From positions 124,001-188,000 of the forward strand of contig NZ_FPBA01000001.1 of assembly GCF_900116515.1 (NCBI RefSeq): a DNA stretch of 64,000 nucleotides. The letters are read 5' to 3'. Origin of the DNA: Geodermatophilus amargosae. Its GTDB lineage: Bacteria > Actinomycetota > Actinomycetes > Mycobacteriales > Geodermatophilaceae. The notes below the pieces were generated by a model. That model saw only the letters and a list, made by a program, of their open reading frames with translations, did not search any database and was not told the DNA's origin. Shown here piece by piece: positions 7,214 through 55,240 of this stretch (position 1 is its first letter; each line of letters opens with the position of its first letter). The position numbers were made by a program, and so were the translations under genes.

Positions 7214-7258
7214 CGTGCCCGCTACGTGCCCGTACGGTTCGGGGTCGTGCCCGCTGCG
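7214..7258. promoter_or_regulatory. Candidate integrase arm-type sites, left end
   Basis: CGTGCCCG occurs at 7214, 7225 and 7246. The 21-bp unit at 7214-7234 recurs at 24442-24462 near the right end with one change (A to G). Copies near both ends, one overlapping the integrase 3' end, are what integrase or excisionase arm sites would look like. No binding data are available here. Confidence 0.45.
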
Positions 7259-8352
7259 AGGCGCCCGAGGCGGGCCGCGACCTCGGCGTCGCGCCGCTCG
7301 GCCGCGTGCTGGTAGATCATCGCCGCGCGGGACGACGAGTGGCCGGCACGTCGCATGACCTCGGCCAGGGTCGCCCCGCTCTGCGCCGCCAGGGTGAGTC
7401 CCGCATGCCGCAGGTCGTGCAGATGGACGCCGGGTAGGTCGGCTGCTCGACGGGCCGTGCTCCAGGCGGCGTGGACGTGATGGGCGCGGAGAACTCTCCC
7501 GTCCCTTCGCACGAACAGCCGAGCGGTCGGCAGTGCCGGGGAGCGGGTCCTCAGGTGCTCGGCCAGTGCTGAGACGCCCTGCGGGGGGAGGTGGACGACG
7601 CGCTGGCTGCCTGCCTTCGGTGCGCCCTCCACGGGGCCCACGTCCGTCTCCACGACCTGTCGCTGCACGGCCACAGTGCTGGTGTCCATGTCGACGTCAC
7701 CGATGCGGAGGGCCAGCAGCTCGCCGAGGCGCAGGTGCGCCCAGAAGGCCAGGTCGACGAGGCCCCGGAGGTTCTCGGGCATGTGCGCGGAGAGGTGCTG
7801 TACCTGGTCGACGTCCAGCAGCGGGCGCTCGTCACTGCGGGCCTGGCCCGCACCCGTGATCCGGCAGGGATTTCGGGGGAGCGCGTCGTCTGCAACAGCC
7901 GTGGCCAGGATGGCGTGGAGGAGGGCGTAGGCCTGCCTGGTCGCCGTCGGGCCGGTGGCTGCGCTCGTCTCGGCGTGCCACCGCCGCACAGCGGCCGGTG
8001 TGATCCGGTCGAGCGGCAGGCCGCCGAGCGCAGGGAGCACCCAGCGGTCGAGGGAGTGCTGGTAGGTCTCGCGGGTTCGCACGGCGAGGGGACGACCTCG
8101 AACGGTCCGCTCGGCCAGCCACGCCTGGCTGTACTCGCGGAGCGTGACGCCACTGCGCAAGGGGTCGAGCCACACGCCGCGACCCATGTCCACCTCCACC
8201 GCGGCCAGGAAGCGTGCCGCGTCGGTCTTGGTGGCGAACGTGCTCGGTGCTGACCGGTCCCGGCCGTCCGGGCCCGGGTAGCGGGCCTGCCACCGGCCGG
8301 AGGGCAGCTTGCGCACGCGACCGAAGCGCCTTCTGGTGCTGCTTGCTGGCAT
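7222..8352 (-). CDS. int: Tyrosine-type site-specific integrase
   Basis: 376 residues. The N-terminal region (about 1-60) is an arm-binding AP2-like segment (GRWQARYPGPDG), then a SAM-like core-binding domain, then the catalytic domain. Catalytic residues are visible: Arg in HLRLGELLALR, Lys in PKAGSQR, His and Arg in LHDLRHAG, His in GHSSSR and Tyr in AMIYQH. The gene sits next to attL and reads toward it, as usual for tRNA-targeting actinobacterial elements. It should catalyse integration and, with a small DNA-binding partner, excision. Its stop is TAG. Confidence 0.95.
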   Translation of the reverse strand: MPASSTRRRFGRVRKLPSGRWQARYPGPDGRDRSAPSTFATKTDAARFLAAVEVDMGRGVWLDPLRSGVTLREYSQAWLAERTVRGRPLAVRTRETYQHSLDRWVLPALGGLPLDRITPAAVRRWHAETSAATGPTATRQAYALLHAILATAVADDALPRNPCRITGAGQARSDERPLLDVDQVQHLSAHMPENLRGLVDLAFWAHLRLGELLALRIGDVDMDTSTVAVQRQVVETDVGPVEGAPKAGSQRVVHLPPQGVSALAEHLRTRSPALPTARLFVRRDGRVLRAHHVHAAWSTARRAADLPGVHLHDLRHAGLTLAAQSGATLAEVMRRAGHSSSRAAMIYQHAAERRDAEVAARLGRLAAGTTPNRTGT

Positions 8353-25109: not shown

Positions 25110-25535
25110 ATGACCAGCACGTCCGCGCCCAGCGTCCTGTTCGTCTGCGTCCACAACGCCGGCCGGTCCCAGATGGCCGCCGGCTGGCTGCGTTCCCTCG
25201 CCGGGGACGCCGTCGAGGTCCGCTCGGCGGGCTCCCTGCCCGGCGACCGGGTCAACCCGGCCGCCGTCGAGGCGATGGCCGAGGTCGGCATCGACATCAC
25301 CGACCAGCGGCCGAAGGTGCTGACCACCGAGGCGGTCGAGGCCTCCGACGTCGTCATCACGATGGGCTGCGGCGACGCCTGCCCGGTCTTCCCCGGCAAG
25401 CGGTACCTGGACTGGGCGCTCGAGGACCCGGCCGGCAAGGGCGTCGAGTCCGTGCGGCCGATCCGCGACGAGATCGAGCGCCGGATCCGCGGGCTGCTCT
25501 CCGAGCTGCAGGTCGACCCCCTCGCCCGTCCCTAG
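25110..25535 (+). CDS. arsC: Arsenate reductase, low-molecular-weight phosphatase type
   Basis: 141 residues. The CX5R loop is CVHNAGRS (residues 13-20), and later cysteines appear in GCGDACPVFPG, giving the C-x(n)-C relay used to pass the disulfide to thioredoxin or mycoredoxin/mycothiol. It reduces arsenate to arsenite for export. ATG at 25110 overlaps the stop of a possible six-codon leader (25092-25112, MSESTR). It ends at TAG that overlaps, by three bases, the TAG of the converging transporter. Confidence 0.93.
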   Translation: MTSTSAPSVLFVCVHNAGRSQMAAGWLRSLAGDAVEVRSAGSLPGDRVNPAAVEAMAEVGIDITDQRPKVLTTEAVEASDVVITMGCGDACPVFPGKRYLDWALEDPAGKGVESVRPIRDEIERRIRGLLSELQVDPLARP

Positions 25536-40837: not shown

Positions 40838-40924
40838 GCGGTTGCCCGCGCCGGGACCGGGGCAGTGCCCGGGCGTGAGCCCACTCGTGATCCCGGTCCG
40901 CGACGTCGACGGCACCCCGCCGGC

Positions 40925-41875
40925 ATGACCCTCCGGGTCGGCCTGGTGGGGGCCGGCGGGGTCGGCGCCCGGCACGGCCGCACGCTGAGCGCGCTGGACG
41001 GCGTCATGCTGGTCGGTGTGGCCGACGCCGTCCCCCCGGCGGCCGCGGCCCTCGCCAGCGAGCTGCGCGTGCCGGCCCTCGACATCGACGCGCTGCTGGG
41101 CTCCGGGCTCGACGCCGTCTGGCTGTGCGTGCCGCCGTTCGCGCACGGCGAGCTGGAGCTGGCGGTGGTCCGGGCCGGCCTGCCGCTGTTCGTGGAGAAG
41201 CCGCTGGGCACCGACCTCGCCGTCGCCGAGGAGGTCGCCGCCGCCGTCGCCGCGGCCGGGGTGCCGACGGCGACCGGTTACCACTGGCGGCACCTGGACA
41301 CCGTGGCCGCCGCCCGCGCGGTGTGCGCGGCCGCCCCGCCGCGGCTGCTCGCGGCCACCTGGTTGGACAAGGTCCCGCCGCCGGCGTGGTGGTCGCGCGC
41401 GGACCGCTCGGGCGGTCAGGTGGTCGAGCAGGCCACGCACGTGCTCGACCTGGCCCGCGTGCTGGCCGGCGAGGTCACCGAGGTGCGGGCGCTGACCGCG
41501 CCGTCGTCAGCCGAGGGGCGCGACGTCGACGACGCCACCGTGGCGCTGCTGCGCTTCGGCTCCGGCGCGGTCGGCACACTCGCCGCGGGCTGCGCGCAGC
41601 CGGCGAAGACCCGCGCCGGCCTGGAGGTCTCCTGCGCCGGCGCCGCGCTCGAGCTCACCGAGACCGCGCTGGCGGTGACGACGGCGGAGGGCACCACGCA
41701 CACCGAGCCGGCCGTCGACGCGCGCACCGCCGTCGACCGGGCCTTCGTGGAGCTGCTGACCACCGGCACCCGCGCCGAGGGGCTGGTCGACTACGCCGAG
41801 GCGCTGCGGACCCACCGGCTGGCCGTGGCGATCGCCGAGTCCGCCCGCAGCGGCGCCGCCGTCCGATACGGATAG
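40925..41875 (+). CDS. Gfo/Idh/MocA-family oxidoreductase
   Basis: 316 residues. N-terminal Rossmann fold (RVGLVGAGGVGARHGRTL), then EKPLGTD, the family EKP motif (Lys in the active site), and a C-terminal sheet domain. NAD(P)-dependent oxidation or reduction of a sugar or similar compound. Starts at ATG 40925. Stop is TAG. The adjacent genes are a dehydrogenase upstream and a glycosyltransferase converging from downstream. Confidence 0.9.
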   Translation: MTLRVGLVGAGGVGARHGRTLSALDGVMLVGVADAVPPAAAALASELRVPALDIDALLGSGLDAVWLCVPPFAHGELELAVVRAGLPLFVEKPLGTDLAVAEEVAAAVAAAGVPTATGYHWRHLDTVAAARAVCAAAPPRLLAATWLDKVPPPAWWSRADRSGGQVVEQATHVLDLARVLAGEVTEVRALTAPSSAEGRDVDDATVALLRFGSGAVGTLAAGCAQPAKTRAGLEVSCAGAALELTETALAVTTAEGTTHTEPAVDARTAVDRAFVELLTTGTRAEGLVDYAEALRTHRLAVAIAESARSGAAVRYG

Positions 41876-49320: not shown

Positions 49321-49725
49321 GTGGCCACCTGGGCGGACGTGCGGCGCCTGGCCCTCGCCCTGCCCGGGGCCGTGGAGGGCACCTCGTACGGCGGACAGGC
49401 GTGGAAGGTGCGCGACAAGGCCTTCGTGTGGGAGCGCCCGCTGCGCCGTGCCGACGTCGCGCACCTCGGAGACGCCGCCCCCCACGGCCCGGTCCTCGGT
49501 GTCGCCGTCGCCGACGAGGGCGTGAAGCACGCGCTCATCGCCGACGACCCCGCCGTCTACCTCACGACGCCGCACTTCGACGGGTACGCCGTCGTGCTCG
49601 TGCGGCTGGACGCCGTCGACGTCCCCGAGCTCGCCGAGCTGGTCACCGAGGCGTGGCTGGCGAAGGCGCCGAAGCGACTGGCGCAGGAGCACCTCGCCGC
49701 CGGGCGGACCGACCCGGCGACCTAG
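49321..49725 (+). CDS. MmcQ/YjbR-family protein
   Basis: 134 residues. ALALPGAVEGTSYGGQAWKVRDKAF and the later DDPAVYLTTPHFDGYAVVLVRL are typical of the YjbR double-wing DNA-binding-like family. Family function uncertain. GTG at 49321 begins directly after the previous gene's gap. Stop is TAG. Confidence 0.88.
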   Translation: MATWADVRRLALALPGAVEGTSYGGQAWKVRDKAFVWERPLRRADVAHLGDAAPHGPVLGVAVADEGVKHALIADDPAVYLTTPHFDGYAVVLVRLDAVDVPELAELVTEAWLAKAPKRLAQEHLAAGRTDPAT

Positions 49726-49804: not shown

Positions 49805-52800
49805 GTGAAGACCTGGCTCGACGCCTGGCCGGTGTTCCGGCAGCTGACCGGCCCCGACCCGCTCGGACGCGGTGCGGCGGCACGCAGCAGGGCGACGGAG
49901 AACGTGGTGAGCCGCACGGCCACCGCCGACCGCGTCGTGCAGAGCGTGTGCCCCTACTGCGCGGTGGGTTGCGGGCAGCGGATCTTCGTCAAGGACGAGC
50001 AGATCGTCCAGATCGAGGGCGACCCGGACTCGCCGATCAGCCGCGGCCGGCTGTGCCCCAAGGGCAGCGCCAGCAAGTCGCTGGTCACCAGCCCGACCCG
50101 CGTCACGACGGTCAAGTACCGCCGCCCGTACGGGACGGAGTGGGAGGACCTCGAGCTCGACACGGCGATGGAGATGATCGCCGACCGCGTCCTGGAGGCC
50201 CGGCGCAAGGGCTGGCAGGACGAGAACGGCGGCAAGCGCGTGAACCGCACGATGGGGTTGGCGAGCCTCGGAGGGGCGACCCTCGACAACGAGGAGAACT
50301 ACCTCATGAAGAAGCTCTACAGCGCCATGGGCGCGATCCAGATCGAGAACCAGGCGCGCATATAGCACTCCGCCACGGTGCCCGGTCTGGGTGCCTCGTT
50401 CGGTCGTGGTGGCGCCACGAACTCCCAGGAAGACCTCGCGAACTCCGACTGCATCGTCATCGAGGGTTCGAACATGGCCGAGTGCCACCCGGTGGGTTTC
50501 CAATGGGTGGCGGAGGCGAAGGCGCGCGGCGCCAAGGTGGTCCACATCGACCCGCGGTTCACCCGCACCAGCGCGATCGCCGACCTGCACGTGCCGCTGC
50601 GCATGGGCACCGACATCGCCTTCCTCGGCGGCCTGATCCGGTACGTGCTCGACAACGAGCTGTACTTCAAGGAGTACGTGGTCGCCTACACCAACGCCGC
50701 GGCGCTGGTGGGTGAGGACTTCGTCGACGCCGAGGACCTCGGTGGCCTGTTCTCCGGCTTCGACCCGGAGCACAACCAGTACGACGAGGCCAGCTGGCAG
50801 TACGAGCCGGAGGAGGCGCCGCACTCCGGCTCGGACGACCCGGCGGGGGCCGCGGAGCAGGACCGCAAGGAGCAGGACCCCGAGATCAAGAAGACCGACA
50901 AGGCCCAGGCGGCCGGCAGCGGCGGCCCGCCGATCCCCGCCAAGCCGAAGCGGGACGAGACGCTGCAGCACCCCCGCACCGTCTTCCAGGTCCTCAAGCG
51001 GCACTTCGCCCGCTACACCCCGGAGATGGTCGCCGAGGTCTGCGGCATCGAGCCGGAGGTGTTCCTGCAGGTCGCCCGCTGGGTGACCGAGAACAGCAAG
51101 CGGGACCGGACGACGGCGTGGGTCTACTCGGTGGGCTGGACGCAGCACAGCGTCGGCGCGCAGTACATCCGCACCTGCTCGATCCTGCAGACGCTGCTGG
51201 GCAACATCGGCCGTCCCGGCGGCGGCATCCTGGCGCTGCGCGGGCACGCCAGCATCCAGGGCTCGACCGACGTCCCGACGCTGTACAACCTGCTGCCGGG
51301 CTACCTGCCGATGCCGCACGCGATGCAGCACGCGACGCTCGACGAGTACTGCGCCGACGCGGCCGGCAAGGCCGGGTTCTGGGGCAACAAGCGGTCCTAC
51401 ACGGTCAGCCTGCTCAAGGCCTGGTGGGGCGACGCCGCGACCGCGGAGAACGACTTCTGCTTCGACTACATGCCGAAGATCGACGGCGACCACAGCTCCT
51501 ACCGCCAGATCGCCGACATGATCCAGGGCAAGATCGCCGGCTACTTCCTCGTCGGCGAGAACCCGACGGTCGGGCACCCCAACGGCCGGATGAACCGGTT
51601 CGGCCTGGCCAACCTGGACTGGCTGGTGGTCCGCGACCTGCAGATGATCGAGTCGGCGACCTTCTGGAAGGAGTCGCCGGAGATCGAGACCGGGGAGCTG
51701 GCGCCCGAGACGATCGCCACCGAGGTCTTCTTCGTGCCCGCGGCGTCGCACGCGGAGAAGGAGGGGACCTTCACCCAGACCCAGCGGCTGCTGCAGTGGC
51801 GCCACAAGGCCGTCGAGCCGCCGGGCGACGCGAAGAGCGACCTGTGGTTCTACTACCACCTCGGCCGCATGCTGCGGGAGCGGCTGGCGGACTCCACCGA
51901 CCCGCGGGACCGCCCCCTGCTGGACCTGACCTGGGACTACCCGACCCACGGGCCGGACCAGGAGCCCAGCGCCGACGCCGTCCTGCGCGAGATCAACGGC
52001 GTCGGTCCCGACGGGCACGCGGTGTCGGGCTACATGGAGCTGAAGGACGACGGCTCGACGACGTGCGGCTGCTGGATCTACTCCGGCGTCTACGCCGACG
52101 AGGTCAACCAGGCCGCCCGCCGCAAGCCCGGCCGCGAGCAGGGCCAGGTCGCCTCCGAGTGGGGCTGGGCCTGGCCGTACAACCGGCGCATCCTCTACAA
52201 CCGCGCCTCGGCCGACCCCGACGGCAAGCCGTGGAGCGAGCGCAAGAAGTACGTGTACTGGGACGAGGAGGCCGGTCGCTGGACCGGCGCCGACAACCCG
52301 GACTTCGAGGCGACCAAGCGGCCGGACTACGTGCCGCCGGACGGCGCCCGGGCACAGGACGCCATCGGCGGCAGCGACCCGTTCATCATGCAGGGGGACG
52401 GGAAGGCCTGGCTGTACGCGCCCGCGGGGGTGGTCGACGGCCCGCTGCCGACGCACTACGAGCCGGCGGAGTCCGTCGTCGAGAACGCCCTGTACAAGCA
52501 GCAGGCGAACCCGACGATCGAGCACATCGAGGGGCCGTGGAACCGCGAGAACCCCGCGCTCAGCCCGGTCTTCCCGTTCCAGGTGACCACCTACCGGCTC
52601 ACCGAGCACCACACCGCCGGCGGGATGAGCCGCACGCTGCCCTACCTGTCCGAGCTGCAGCCGGAGTTCTTCGTCGAGGTGAGCCCGGAGCTCGCCGCGC
52701 TGCGCGGCCTGACCAACGGCGACTACGCCACGCTGGTCAGCACGCGGACCGCGATCGAGGCGAAGGTGCTGGTCACCGAGCGGATGCGGCCGATCCGGCT

Positions 52801-53095
52801 GCGCAGCGGCCAGGTCGTGCACCAGATCGGGATGCCCTACCACTGGTCCTACAGCGGCATCTCGACCGGCGACTCGGCGAACGACCTGCTCGGGATCGTG
52901 CTCGACCCGAACACCCACATCCAGGAGGACAAGGTCAGCACCGCCGACATCCGGCCGGGACGGCGCCCGCGCGGCCCGGCGCTGATCGACTTCGTCGAGT
53001 CCTACCGCCGGCGGGCCGGCGTGGGGTCCGGACGGGTCGGGGTGAACGGCCGCGACCCGGTCGCCGCCGAGGCCGGCGAGGGATCCCAGCTGTGA
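49805..53095 (+). CDS. fdh: Formate dehydrogenase catalytic subunit, selenocysteine at UAG codon 187
   Basis: 1096 residues if TAG at 50363-50365 is read through. The first 186 codons have the [4Fe-4S] cysteines (C49, C52, C56, C84: CPYCAVGCG and LCPKG). The frame before the stop is IENQARI and after it HSATVPGLGASFGRGGATNS; in Sec enzymes U lies between QAR(V/I) and H. Downstream are molybdopterin-binding segments GSNMAECHPVG, HASIQGSTDVPTL, GENPTVGHPNGR and KEGTFTQTQR. A charged insertion (about 330-375) is unusual. No Tat signal. GTG start. Oxidises formate, passing electrons to the FeS subunit. Confidence 0.92.
50377..50395 (+). promoter_or_regulatory. Candidate bacterial SECIS hairpin after the UAG
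   Basis: GGTGCCC-GGTCT-GGGTGCC: a 7-bp stem (two wobble pairs) with apical loop GGUCU. From the recoded codon to the loop are 18 bases, matching E. coli fdhF as I remember it, and the loop is the same. SelB should bind it. Confidence 0.8.
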
Positions 53096-53120: not shown

Positions 53121-54188
53121 ATGACCTCGATCAGCTCGGCGAGCCCGGCCTTCACGGGCCGCGACCCGGACAACCGGCTGTTCGGGCCGCTGCCCGACGT
53201 CCAGGGCGAGGCCGGCTACGACACCGACCACCCGGCGCGGGTGGGCTTCTTCACCGACACCTCGGTGTGCATCGGCTGCAAGGCCTGCGAGGTGGCGTGT
53301 AAGGAGTGGAACACCCTGCCGATGGACGACTCGCACGGCGTGCGCGACGTCATCGGGCTGTCCGGGATGTCCTACGACAACACCGGCCAGCTCGGCGCCA
53401 ACTCCTGGCGGCACGTGGCCTTCATCGAGCAGACCCGCACCGTCGACCTGCCGACGCCGACCTTCGGGCGCCCCGGCGACGACCGCCAGGGCTCCGGCCC
53501 GTCGGTCGCCGAGGGCCAGAACGACGACAGCCTGGCGACGGCGCAGCAGTCCGGCGTCCTCAACGCCGAGGCGCTCAGCGAGTTCGACCCGCAGACGGGG
53601 CAGACCGGCTCGGACAAGCAGATCCGCTGGCTGATGAGCTCCGACGTCTGCAAGCACTGCACGCACGCCGGGTGCCTCGACGTCTGCCCGACGGGTGCGC
53701 TGTTCCGCACCGAGTTCGGCACCGTCGTGGTGCAGGGCGACATCTGCAACGGCTGCGGCTACTGCGTGCCCGCCTGCCCGTACGGCGTCATCGACCAGCG
53801 CAAGGACGACGGCCGGGTCTTCAAGTGCACGATGTGCTACGACCGGCTCACCGACGGGCTGCAGCCGGCCTGCGCCACCGCCTGCCCCACGCAGTCGATC
53901 CAGTTCGGCAACCTCGAGGAGCTGCAGGCCCGCGCCGACGCGCGGCTGGCCACCCTCCAGGGCCAGGGCGTGGAGACCGCACGGCTCTACGGCCGCGACG
54001 AGGACGACGGCGTCGGCGGCGCCGGGGCGTTCTTCCTGCTGCTCGACGAGCCGGAGGTCTACGGCCTGCCACCGGACCCGGTGGTGACCACCCGTGACCT
54101 GCCCTCGATGTGGCGGGCCGCCGCGGCGGGCGCCGCGATGATGGTCGGCGTCGTCGTCTCCGCCTTCGTGGGACGGCGGCCCCGGTGA
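53121..54188 (+). CDS. Formate dehydrogenase iron-sulfur subunit
   Basis: 355 residues. Four cysteine groups suit four [4Fe-4S] clusters: CIGCKACEVACKEW, CKHCTHAGCLDVC, CNGCGYCVPAC and CTMC...CATAC. One hydrophobic C-terminal helix (MWRAAAAGAAMMVGVVVSAFVG) anchors it. It transfers electrons from the catalytic subunit to the membrane partner. It starts 26 bases after the catalytic gene; its TGA overlaps the GTG of the next gene. Confidence 0.93.
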   Translation: MTSISSASPAFTGRDPDNRLFGPLPDVQGEAGYDTDHPARVGFFTDTSVCIGCKACEVACKEWNTLPMDDSHGVRDVIGLSGMSYDNTGQLGANSWRHVAFIEQTRTVDLPTPTFGRPGDDRQGSGPSVAEGQNDDSLATAQQSGVLNAEALSEFDPQTGQTGSDKQIRWLMSSDVCKHCTHAGCLDVCPTGALFRTEFGTVVVQGDICNGCGYCVPACPYGVIDQRKDDGRVFKCTMCYDRLTDGLQPACATACPTQSIQFGNLEELQARADARLATLQGQGVETARLYGRDEDDGVGGAGAFFLLLDEPEVYGLPPDPVVTTRDLPSMWRAAAAGAAMMVGVVVSAFVGRRPR

Positions 54189-55240
54189 CGGAGGGACTGG
54201 CCACACCCGGCGCCGGGTGGCGGCGGGCCGACGGGCCGCCGGCGGAGCAGCGGGCGAAGCGGCGTCGCAAGGGGGGACGGCGCGGCGGCCGCGGGGGCGA
54301 GGTCCCCATGGTCGAGGACGCCGAGTTCACGTCCTACTACGGCCGCCCGATCATCAAGCCGCCGGTGTGGAAGTCACCCGACGTGCCGCTGTACCTCTTC
54401 CTCGGCGGGATGGCGGGGTCGTCGTCGATCATCGCCGCGGTCGCCGACGTCACCGGCCGGCCGTCGCTGACCCGCACCGCCCGGTTCACCGCCGGCGGCG
54501 GGGCGGTCGCCTCGGTGGTCTTCCTCATCCACGACCTCGGCCGGCCCGAGCGCTTCCTGCACATGCTGCGGGTGTTCAAGCCGACCTCGCCGCTGTCGGT
54601 CGGCTCCTACATCCTGGCGCCGTTCGGCGCGGCGGCCGGTGCGACGGCGGCCGTCGAGCTGCTGGGCTGGTTCCCGCGGCTCAAGCGGTTCGGCGGGGTG
54701 GTCTCGGCGCTGTTCGGCGGACCGCTGGCCACCTACACCGCGGTGCTGCTGGCCAACACCGCGGTGCCGTCCTGGCACGCGGCGCACGACCAGCTGCCGT
54801 ACGTCTTCGGTGGCTCGGCGATGGCGGCCGGCGGCGGCGTGACGATGGTCTTCACGCCGGTGGCGGAGGCCGGGCCCTCGCGGCGGACGGCGGTGGCCGG
54901 GGCGGCCATCGAGCTGGCCGCGATGCACCGGGTGGAGAGCGGGCACGGCATCGTCAGCGAGCCGTACCACGAGGGCCGGCCCGGGACGCTGCTGCGCATC
55001 GCCAAGGGCTGCACGGCGGCGGGCGCGCTGCTGACCGTCGCCGCCGGCCGGAACCGGGCCGGTGCGGTGGTGGCCGGGGCGCTGCTGGCGGCCGGGTCGC
55101 TGCTCACCCGCTTCGGCGTCTTCGAGGCCGGGCTCGTCTCCGCCAAGCACCCGAAGTACACCGTCGTCCCGCAGCGCGAGCGGCTGGCCGCCCGGGAGGC
55201 CGCGCGGCAGAACGGGCACGCGCCGAGCGTCACCCGCTGA
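54185..55240 (+). CDS. nrfD: NrfD/PsrC-family membrane subunit of formate dehydrogenase
   Basis: 351 residues from GTG at 54185 (GTGA overlap). A basic N-terminus (RRRKGGRRGGRGG) precedes a segment YYGRPIIKPPVWK and then about 7-8 transmembrane helices (LYLFLGGMAGSSSIIAAVAD, VVFLIHDLGRPERFLHMLR). This is the NrfD type, which passes electrons to quinone without heme. It makes this a quinone-linked formate dehydrogenase. An internal ATG at 54309 is an alternative start. Confidence 0.9.
   Translation: MTEGLATPGAGWRRADGPPAEQRAKRRRKGGRRGGRGGEVPMVEDAEFTSYYGRPIIKPPVWKSPDVPLYLFLGGMAGSSSIIAAVADVTGRPSLTRTARFTAGGGAVASVVFLIHDLGRPERFLHMLRVFKPTSPLSVGSYILAPFGAAAGATAAVELLGWFPRLKRFGGVVSALFGGPLATYTAVLLANTAVPSWHAAHDQLPYVFGGSAMAAGGGVTMVFTPVAEAGPSRRTAVAGAAIELAAMHRVESGHGIVSEPYHEGRPGTLLRIAKGCTAAGALLTVAAGRNRAGAVVAGALLAAGSLLTRFGVFEAGLVSAKHPKYTVVPQRERLAAREAARQNGHAPSVTR

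Follow-up and report, generated by a model that had tools for sequence, protein, structure and literature searches.

The fdhA locus and its in-frame TAG

The window, a stretch of 64,000 nt of the soil bacterium Geodermatophilus amargosae (GCF_900116515.1, contig NZ_FPBA01000001.1, positions 124,001 to 188,000, forward strand), contains a gene for the catalytic subunit of formate dehydrogenase (FDH), followed by genes for two further subunits. The features are as follows.

49805..53095, + strand: fdhA, formate dehydrogenase catalytic subunit, with a GTG start (NF041513; PDB relatives 1h0h_A and 1kqf_A)
50363..50365, + strand: in-frame TAG at the selenocysteine (Sec) position of fdhA (sequence, alignment with 1h0h_A, family conservation)
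53121..54188, + strand: fdhB-like iron-sulfur subunit (TIGR01582, 177.5 bits, under the cut-off of 334.7)
54296..55240, + strand: probable membrane subunit, NrfD-like, start uncertain (weak TIGR03148 match, E 5.5e-4; gene order)

From position 49805 the fdhA frame runs through 186 codons, a TAG, 909 sense codons and a TGA at 53093-53095. The TAG at 50363-50365, in the context GCG CGC ATA TAG CAC TCC GCC ACG GTG, is the sole interruption of the frame 49805-53095, and reading through it with Sec at residue 187 gives a protein of 1096 residues. The half before the TAG matches the first part of the NCBIfam model NF041513 with 334.2 bits and the half after it matches the last part with 1554.8 bits. 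The read-through protein gives one match of 1916.6 bits, covering model positions 2-1067 of 1067 (cut-off 1400). When the protein is aligned by phmmer with the solved formate dehydrogenase 1h0h_A, the residue encoded by the TAG stands opposite the residue written X (Sec) in QARI-X-HSATV. The initial annotation had placed a TAG exactly at the Sec site of formate dehydrogenase, which is borne out by this alignment and by a TAG in the relatives as well. The frame also continues past the TAG as it had described, in the same frame to 53095, with 909 sense codons where 910 had been counted. The order of the NrfD-like gene in the window is the one seen in plasmid selenium/FDH clusters, in which the gene is annotated nrfD.

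A SECIS-type hairpin downstream of the TAG

A candidate recoding element was found by comparing the sequences that follow the Sec site.

50377..50395, + strand: SECIS-type hairpin with a 7-bp stem and a 5-nt loop, GGUCU, at 50384-50388 (comparative pairing, covariation)

The hairpin starts 11 nt past the fdhA TAG. In the fdhA genes with UAG, which are those of the window and its relatives, all seven pairs can form in 31/31 sequences (217/217 cells of the alignment pair). The corresponding figures are 8/15 sequences for the UGA genes of the order (98/105 cells) and 0/8 for the genes with Cys (30/56 cells). When the UAG and UGA genes are taken together (35 distinct sequences), 98.4% of the cells pair and three pairs are changed on both sides. 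The covariation is 0.256 compared with 0.089 in shuffled alignments, and none of 500 shuffles is as high, a figure that is not to be read as a probability because the rows are related. Every measure drops when the partners are slid along the alignment. Columns 18 and 30, both third codon positions, pair as C-G, G-C, G-U, U-A and U-G. It should be mentioned that the hairpin of the window, folded as a single sequence, is no better than its shuffled versions (z -0.06), so that the hairpin is a comparative result. We take its loop and spacing to agree with those of the E. coli fdhF SECIS.

Selenocysteine machinery and a second UAG selenoprotein gene

In the genome of the window (G000), a single locus exceeds the Rfam cut-off for tRNA-Sec, namely G000:C22:151574-151665 with 66.6 bits. 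ARAGORN assigns it the anticodon CTA (CUA) and prints it as tRNA-Pyl. Since tRNA-Sec(CUA) is printed under this name, routine annotation can hide the use of UAG for Sec. The call is made for the tRNA-Sec(CUA) genes at L001:1497-1592, L102:9832-9927 and L210:7597-7693. Beside the tRNA of the window's genome lies selB (TIGR00475, 267.7 bits, cut-off 242.25), with a selA frame between the two. Used as a query, this SelA retrieves the SelA of other loci; the SelA family model was run on the Coriobacteriia-labelled SelA described below only. On the other side of the tRNA is a putative selD frame, which begins with a glycine-rich stretch, as is usual, and has a Cys at the Sec/Cys site, as judged by eye only. 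A tRNA-Sec with a CUA anticodon, together with selA and selB, had been left by the initial annotation to be sought in the full genome; the tRNA is there and adjoins both genes, with the selD frame identified by eye nearby.

The same genome holds a second gene of this kind, a UGSC-family gene at G000:C44:58389-58886, with one TAG in the motif ALAD-U-GSC. A strong hairpin folds past this TAG, at the same distance as in fdhA (both seen in L247).

UAG as an ordinary stop

Other genes of the window end at TAG, including the gene just upstream of fdhA.

7222..8352, - strand: integrase gene with a TAG end (Pfam PF00589)
25110..25535, + strand: arsC-like (LMWPc) gene with a TAG end (Pfam PF01451)
40865..41875, + strand: Gfo/Idh/MocA oxidoreductase gene with a TAG end (Pfam PF01408 on 40925-41875)
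49321..49725, + strand: YjbR/MmcQ-type gene just upstream of fdhA with an ordinary TAG stop (Pfam PF04237)

An MFS gene ending at TAG only just passes its Pfam model (33.5 bits, cut-off 33.4). Eight other TAG-ended genes had been named in the initial annotation; Pfam confirms the integrase, LMWPc, MFS, Gfo/Idh/MocA and YjbR/MmcQ genes, and the MaoC, Nudix and EEP genes fall outside the filtered listing. Its view that UAG is normally a stop and is recoded in context agrees with these Pfam-confirmed genes. A crude ORF picker returned 50 ORFs in the window, 37 ending at TGA, 12 at TAG (the fdhA stop among them, as well as some frames that are probably spurious) and one at TAA. Outside the Sec sites, UAG is an ordinary stop in this genome.

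Extent of UAG within the Geodermatophilaceae and placing of the switch

The anticodon arm with CUA is present in 101 of 112 Geodermatophilaceae genomes. Of the 11 genomes without it, nine make up the three genera g5, g6 and g7, and the other two, both incomplete, belong to g9. Seven of the nine (G066, G068, G069, G070, G072, G073 and G074) have a tRNA-Sec(UCA); for G071 the two hits inspected are tRNA-Ser, and the tRNA-Sec search gave no strong hit in G067. Some tRNA-Ser pass the tRNA-Sec cut-off, and the 110/112 genomes with a match over it are therefore no count of tRNA-Sec. The CUA arm is matched twice in G037 and in G095. One contig of Blastococcus endophyticus (NZ_JABGCI010000003.1; L205, L219) has two tRNA-Sec(CUA) genes of differing sequence. 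In an alignment of 16 tRNAs, the last pair of the anticodon stem is C-G in the 3 with CUA and U-A in the 13 with UCA.

The search for FdhA in the 112 genomes gave 115 matches over the cut-off in 99 genomes (matches listed, with a hand count in line with the tally). One in-frame stop, TAG, is found in 113/113 of the listed matches that span the site, and the remaining two begin after it. At 31/31 inspected loci, those of the window and of L048-L077, this TAG is at the Sec position. Because the family matches spanning the site carry one TAG too, the TAG in the window can be taken, on sequence evidence, as real and not as a base error. The search of the order covered 397 genomes, Geodermatophilaceae included. 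Outside the family, the matches listed have one TGA or no stop, save G321, which has one TGA and one TAG, and Cys occupies the Sec site in the eight inspected loci of order relatives without a stop. No TAA at the FDH Sec site occurs among the matches listed in the family and order searches.

The two fdhA copies of G079 (L110 and L111, on contigs C12 and C4) are split or broken, one of them with two in-frame TGAs, and a motif scan of these copies gave no Sec site. In G074, whose tRNA-Sec is UCA, a match to the SelB model at L126 (G074:C4:7469-8629) scores 200.7 bits, below the cut-off, and contains one in-frame TAG; the match may be to an EF-Tu gene in which one base is wrong.

A tree of 41 SelA rows unites the 26 Geodermatophilaceae rows from CUA genomes in one clade with support of 100/100. 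Its sister is a pair of rows from UCA genomes of g5 (99/98). One row of the tree, L270, is labelled UCA from its TGA FDH, the tRNA not being found on L270. The Coriobacteriia-labelled SelA sits far from the CUA clade, on a branch that was flagged as long. The simplest reading of these sequences would be one switch from UGA to UAG inside the Geodermatophilaceae. The switch involves two bases in the codon and two in the anticodon. A route through UAA/UUA is possible, the intermediate being found in none of the FdhA matches listed.

Reading of the fdhA TAG

The TAG of fdhA is almost certainly a selenocysteine codon, read by means of tRNA-Sec(CUA), SelA, SelB, the putative SelD and the hairpin. 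Among the competing accounts, the one that fares best holds that UAG is mostly a stop, with readthrough as a low-level regulatory event that yields little enzyme. UAG ends other genes of the window, and release factor 1 (RF1) therefore acts on it. However, the hairpin and the 909 codons downstream of the TAG are conserved, and UAG-programmed Sec was reportedly described by Mukai et al. in 2016 in Geodermatophilus and Blastococcus, with labelling in those genera, so that we consider mere low-level readthrough unlikely. It is highly improbable that another amber tRNA reads the codon, whether a pyrrolysine tRNA or a general suppressor charged with one of the standard amino acids. The name tRNA-Pyl printed by ARAGORN would favor such a tRNA, but the Rfam model for tRNA-Sec matches the CUA tRNA above its cut-off, selA and selB lie beside the tRNA gene, and the codon is at a Sec site, where the eight order loci without a stop have Cys, the usual substitute for Sec. 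The possibility that a nonsense mutation has made fdhA a pseudogene, or that the TAG is a sequencing error, can practically be dismissed despite the default meaning of an in-frame TAG and the broken fdhA of the relative G079, given the single TAG in every listed family match spanning the site, its position at the Sec site wherever inspected, and the frame and hairpin kept downstream of it.

The selenocysteine reading draws on the observed codon and its conservation, the tRNA, selA and selB, the covariation of the hairpin and the second UAG selenoprotein gene. By analogy with the known mechanism of bacterial SelB, SelA together with selenophosphate from SelD would convert Ser-tRNA-Sec(CUA) to Sec-tRNA-Sec, which SelB would deliver to the ribosome while also binding the hairpin 11 nt past the UAG. 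Insertion of Sec would then lead to the predicted selenoenzyme of 1096 residues. The competitor in this scheme would be RF1, which reads UAG, in place of release factor 2, and some truncated product would be expected from this competition. UAG may remain a stop elsewhere because the other genes are without the hairpin.

Comparison with known systems

The UAG system of Geodermatophilus and Blastococcus is of the same family and has the same codon, the same CUA tRNA-Sec and the same FDH and UGSC selenoproteins as found here. The window differs from it in nothing; the present analysis covers more genomes and maps the boundary with the UCA genera. With the standard bacterial UGA system (SelA, SelB, SelD, tRNA-Sec(UCA) and SECIS), the genome shares the parts (SelD by its putative frame), the gene order and the type of hairpin, and the UGA relatives in the order share the FDH hairpin with the gene of the window. 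In contrast to the standard system, the codon is UAG, the anticodon is CUA and competition would come from RF1. Two plasmids, NZ_CP110115.1 and NZ_LR134459.1, carry a selB-selA-tRNA-Sec-selD-nrfD-FeS-fdh set with the same genes as here, but the tRNA-Sec of these clusters is UCA and the genes are on plasmids. Since plasmids of Arthrobacter and Tsukamurella (L252, L253) carry sel genes along with an FDH cluster, the UGA system can be plasmid-borne. In pyrrolysine decoding, UAG is likewise read by a CUA tRNA; the tRNA of the present case, however, belongs to the Sec family and has sel genes beside it, and the residue occupies an established Sec site.

Two probable selenocysteine codons in Geodermatophilus sp. 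LHW52908

In Geodermatophilus sp. LHW52908 (G058), FdhA and UGSC both carry TAG and the genome's own tRNA-Sec(CUA) is on contig C11 (NZ_QVQH01000019.1). A second tRNA-Sec, with the anticodon UCA and a score of 81.8 bits, is located at C17:1173-1263. Among the matches listed for the 112 genomes, UCA and CUA tRNA-Sec occur together only in this one. About 315 bases from the UCA tRNA, on the other strand and divergent from it (L101:1173-2157), is a CMD/AhpD-like frame with a TGA in the motif CFY-U-MESH. The place of this TGA is taken by Cys (in C-x-x-C) in 19/19 aligned homologues from other genomes of the family. The protein is over the cut-off of TIGR01926 (peroxidase-related; 112.6 vs 81.8 bits) and below that of NF041238, the family named for the CFYUT (seleno)protein motif (51.7 bits, cut-off 175). 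Past the TGA there is a hairpin with the loop AGUUU, a loop also seen in 4/15 UGA FDHs; its distance from the codon is two bases shorter than in FDH, and taken alone the hairpin is not significant (z 0.04). The contig of the UCA tRNA also has a match to the ALIL pseudoknot (RF01497, 65.8 bits) at L101:9125-9253.

Kilobases 2-6 of C17 have a G+C content of 0.59-0.65 compared with 0.69-0.77 in most of the remaining first 20 kb, and a DDE transposase fragment is found at the end of the contig. The UCA tRNA is identical at 72/91 positions to its best match within a small set and at 60/91 to the host's own tRNA-Sec. The stretch at 48-52 kb of C17 matches 25/25 other Geodermatophilus genomes, at 81-85% in most long matches; the contig thus appears to belong to Geodermatophilus, a placement still compatible with a misjoin in its first kilobases. 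One SelB over the cut-off is found in the genome. We read these sequences as a UGA selenoprotein gene that may have been acquired together with its own tRNA by a host using UAG for Sec, and both tRNAs would presumably be served by the single SelB of the host.

An apparent second lineage in a Coriobacteriia-labelled assembly

A scan of GTDB species genomes for long-armed tRNAs with CTA gave 93 stretches, 89 of them of the Geodermatophilaceae type, three with no tRNA-Sec, and one, L210, from a metagenome-assembled genome (MAG) labelled Coriobacteriia. The three, L163, L188 and L195, were set aside, their sequences not being those of a tRNA-Sec. The Geodermatophilaceae-type tRNAs include those of a Jatrophihabitans-labelled MAG (L146, on a 4.8-kb contig), which is probably a binning error, and of a Frankiales-labelled MAG (L173), whose SelA falls inside the Geodermatophilaceae CUA clade. 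Three viral stretches matching the CUA tRNA pattern were rejected, none scoring as tRNA-Sec: two IMG/VR contigs have CTA-anticodon tRNAs (L300:6364-6457 and L302:1928-2017) that are plain tRNA in Rfam and resemble amber suppressors, and the third, L301, has no tRNA shown.

The Coriobacteriia-labelled MAG (JAUNNF010000009.1, 35% GC) contains the following features.

L210:2319-7693 and L279:4895-6205: selA, selB, tRNA-Sec(CUA) and the TAG-bearing genes for GrdA and a GrdB-type protein (profile and tRNA matches)

The tRNA-Sec(CUA) scores 64.2 bits and is the only tRNA-Sec match of the MAG over the cut-off. The 66-kb contig also has genes for glycine reductase and the thioredoxin system (by eye) and a YedE-type selenium transporter. 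GrdA has 158 residues with a TAG at 44 (NF040748, 274.6 bits, cut-off 130). A GrdB-type protein of 437 residues, with a TAG at 351, scores 672.0 bits against TIGR01917 (cut-off 602.2) and 683.4 bits against the GrdF model (cut-off 800). By their motifs, we take residues 44 and 351 to be Sec sites. The folds past the two grd TAGs are weak. The SelA of the MAG is 33% identical to that of the window's genome. Because the genes and the tRNA are on one contig, their link cannot be a product of binning.

UAG is an ordinary stop in the MAG, where 921 ORFs of at least 150 aa in 1.39 Mb end at TAA (619), TAG (215, including the grdB-type stop) or TGA (87). The codon-usage scoring of its in-frame stops proved too blunt, as grdA and grdB are absent from the candidates printed. 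A scan for known Sec motifs gave 324 unfiltered places (163 TAA, 92 TGA and 69 TAG), mostly loose CxxU/UxxC, among which we claim Sec for GrdA and GrdB only; one more TAG that loosely fits the GrdB motif, at L295, was rejected as it has no other support. The CUA tRNA pattern is present in 0/40 relatives of the MAG. The case is one assembly, with the Coriobacteriia label as given and unusual at 35% GC, and its sequences apparently represent an independent origin of UAG-encoded Sec. Taken together, it is probable that UAG-encoded Sec arose at least twice, as the MAG suggests, and that one cell can hold two Sec codes, as LHW52908 suggests.

Relation to published work and significance

PMC5330540, with reference to Mukai et al. 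(2016), describes a CUA tRNA-Sec in the Geodermatophilaceae and names FDH and UGSC as the selenoproteins, and the initial annotation was right in pointing to such a tRNA-Sec for Geodermatophilus and Blastococcus. The system also appears in PMC5133445, and Mukai et al. (2016) is cited here via PMC10778597 and PMC8124441 as well. With the window, a further genome joins this published exception to the genetic code. Neither "Geodermatophil" nor "Coriobacter" occurs in the main text of PMC13188914, a 2026 review, or of PMC7609411. A literature search combining selenocysteine, UAG and Coriobacteri found nothing. Titles and beginnings of abstracts, the scope of the search, contained no report of the LHW52908 and MAG cases, whose novelty is provisional. 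What goes beyond print, provisionally, is the placing of the switch inside the family, the two tRNA-Sec of LHW52908 and the lineage of the MAG.

Since the switch from UGA to UAG maps to one branch within a single family, closely related genomes are available for studying its steps. If true, a second lineage with UAG-encoded Sec would mean that such a switch has happened more than once. Two Sec codons in one natural genome, if true, would mean that a Sec code can travel as a codon-plus-tRNA cassette and work beside another, which is what the builders of orthogonal selenocysteine systems aim for.
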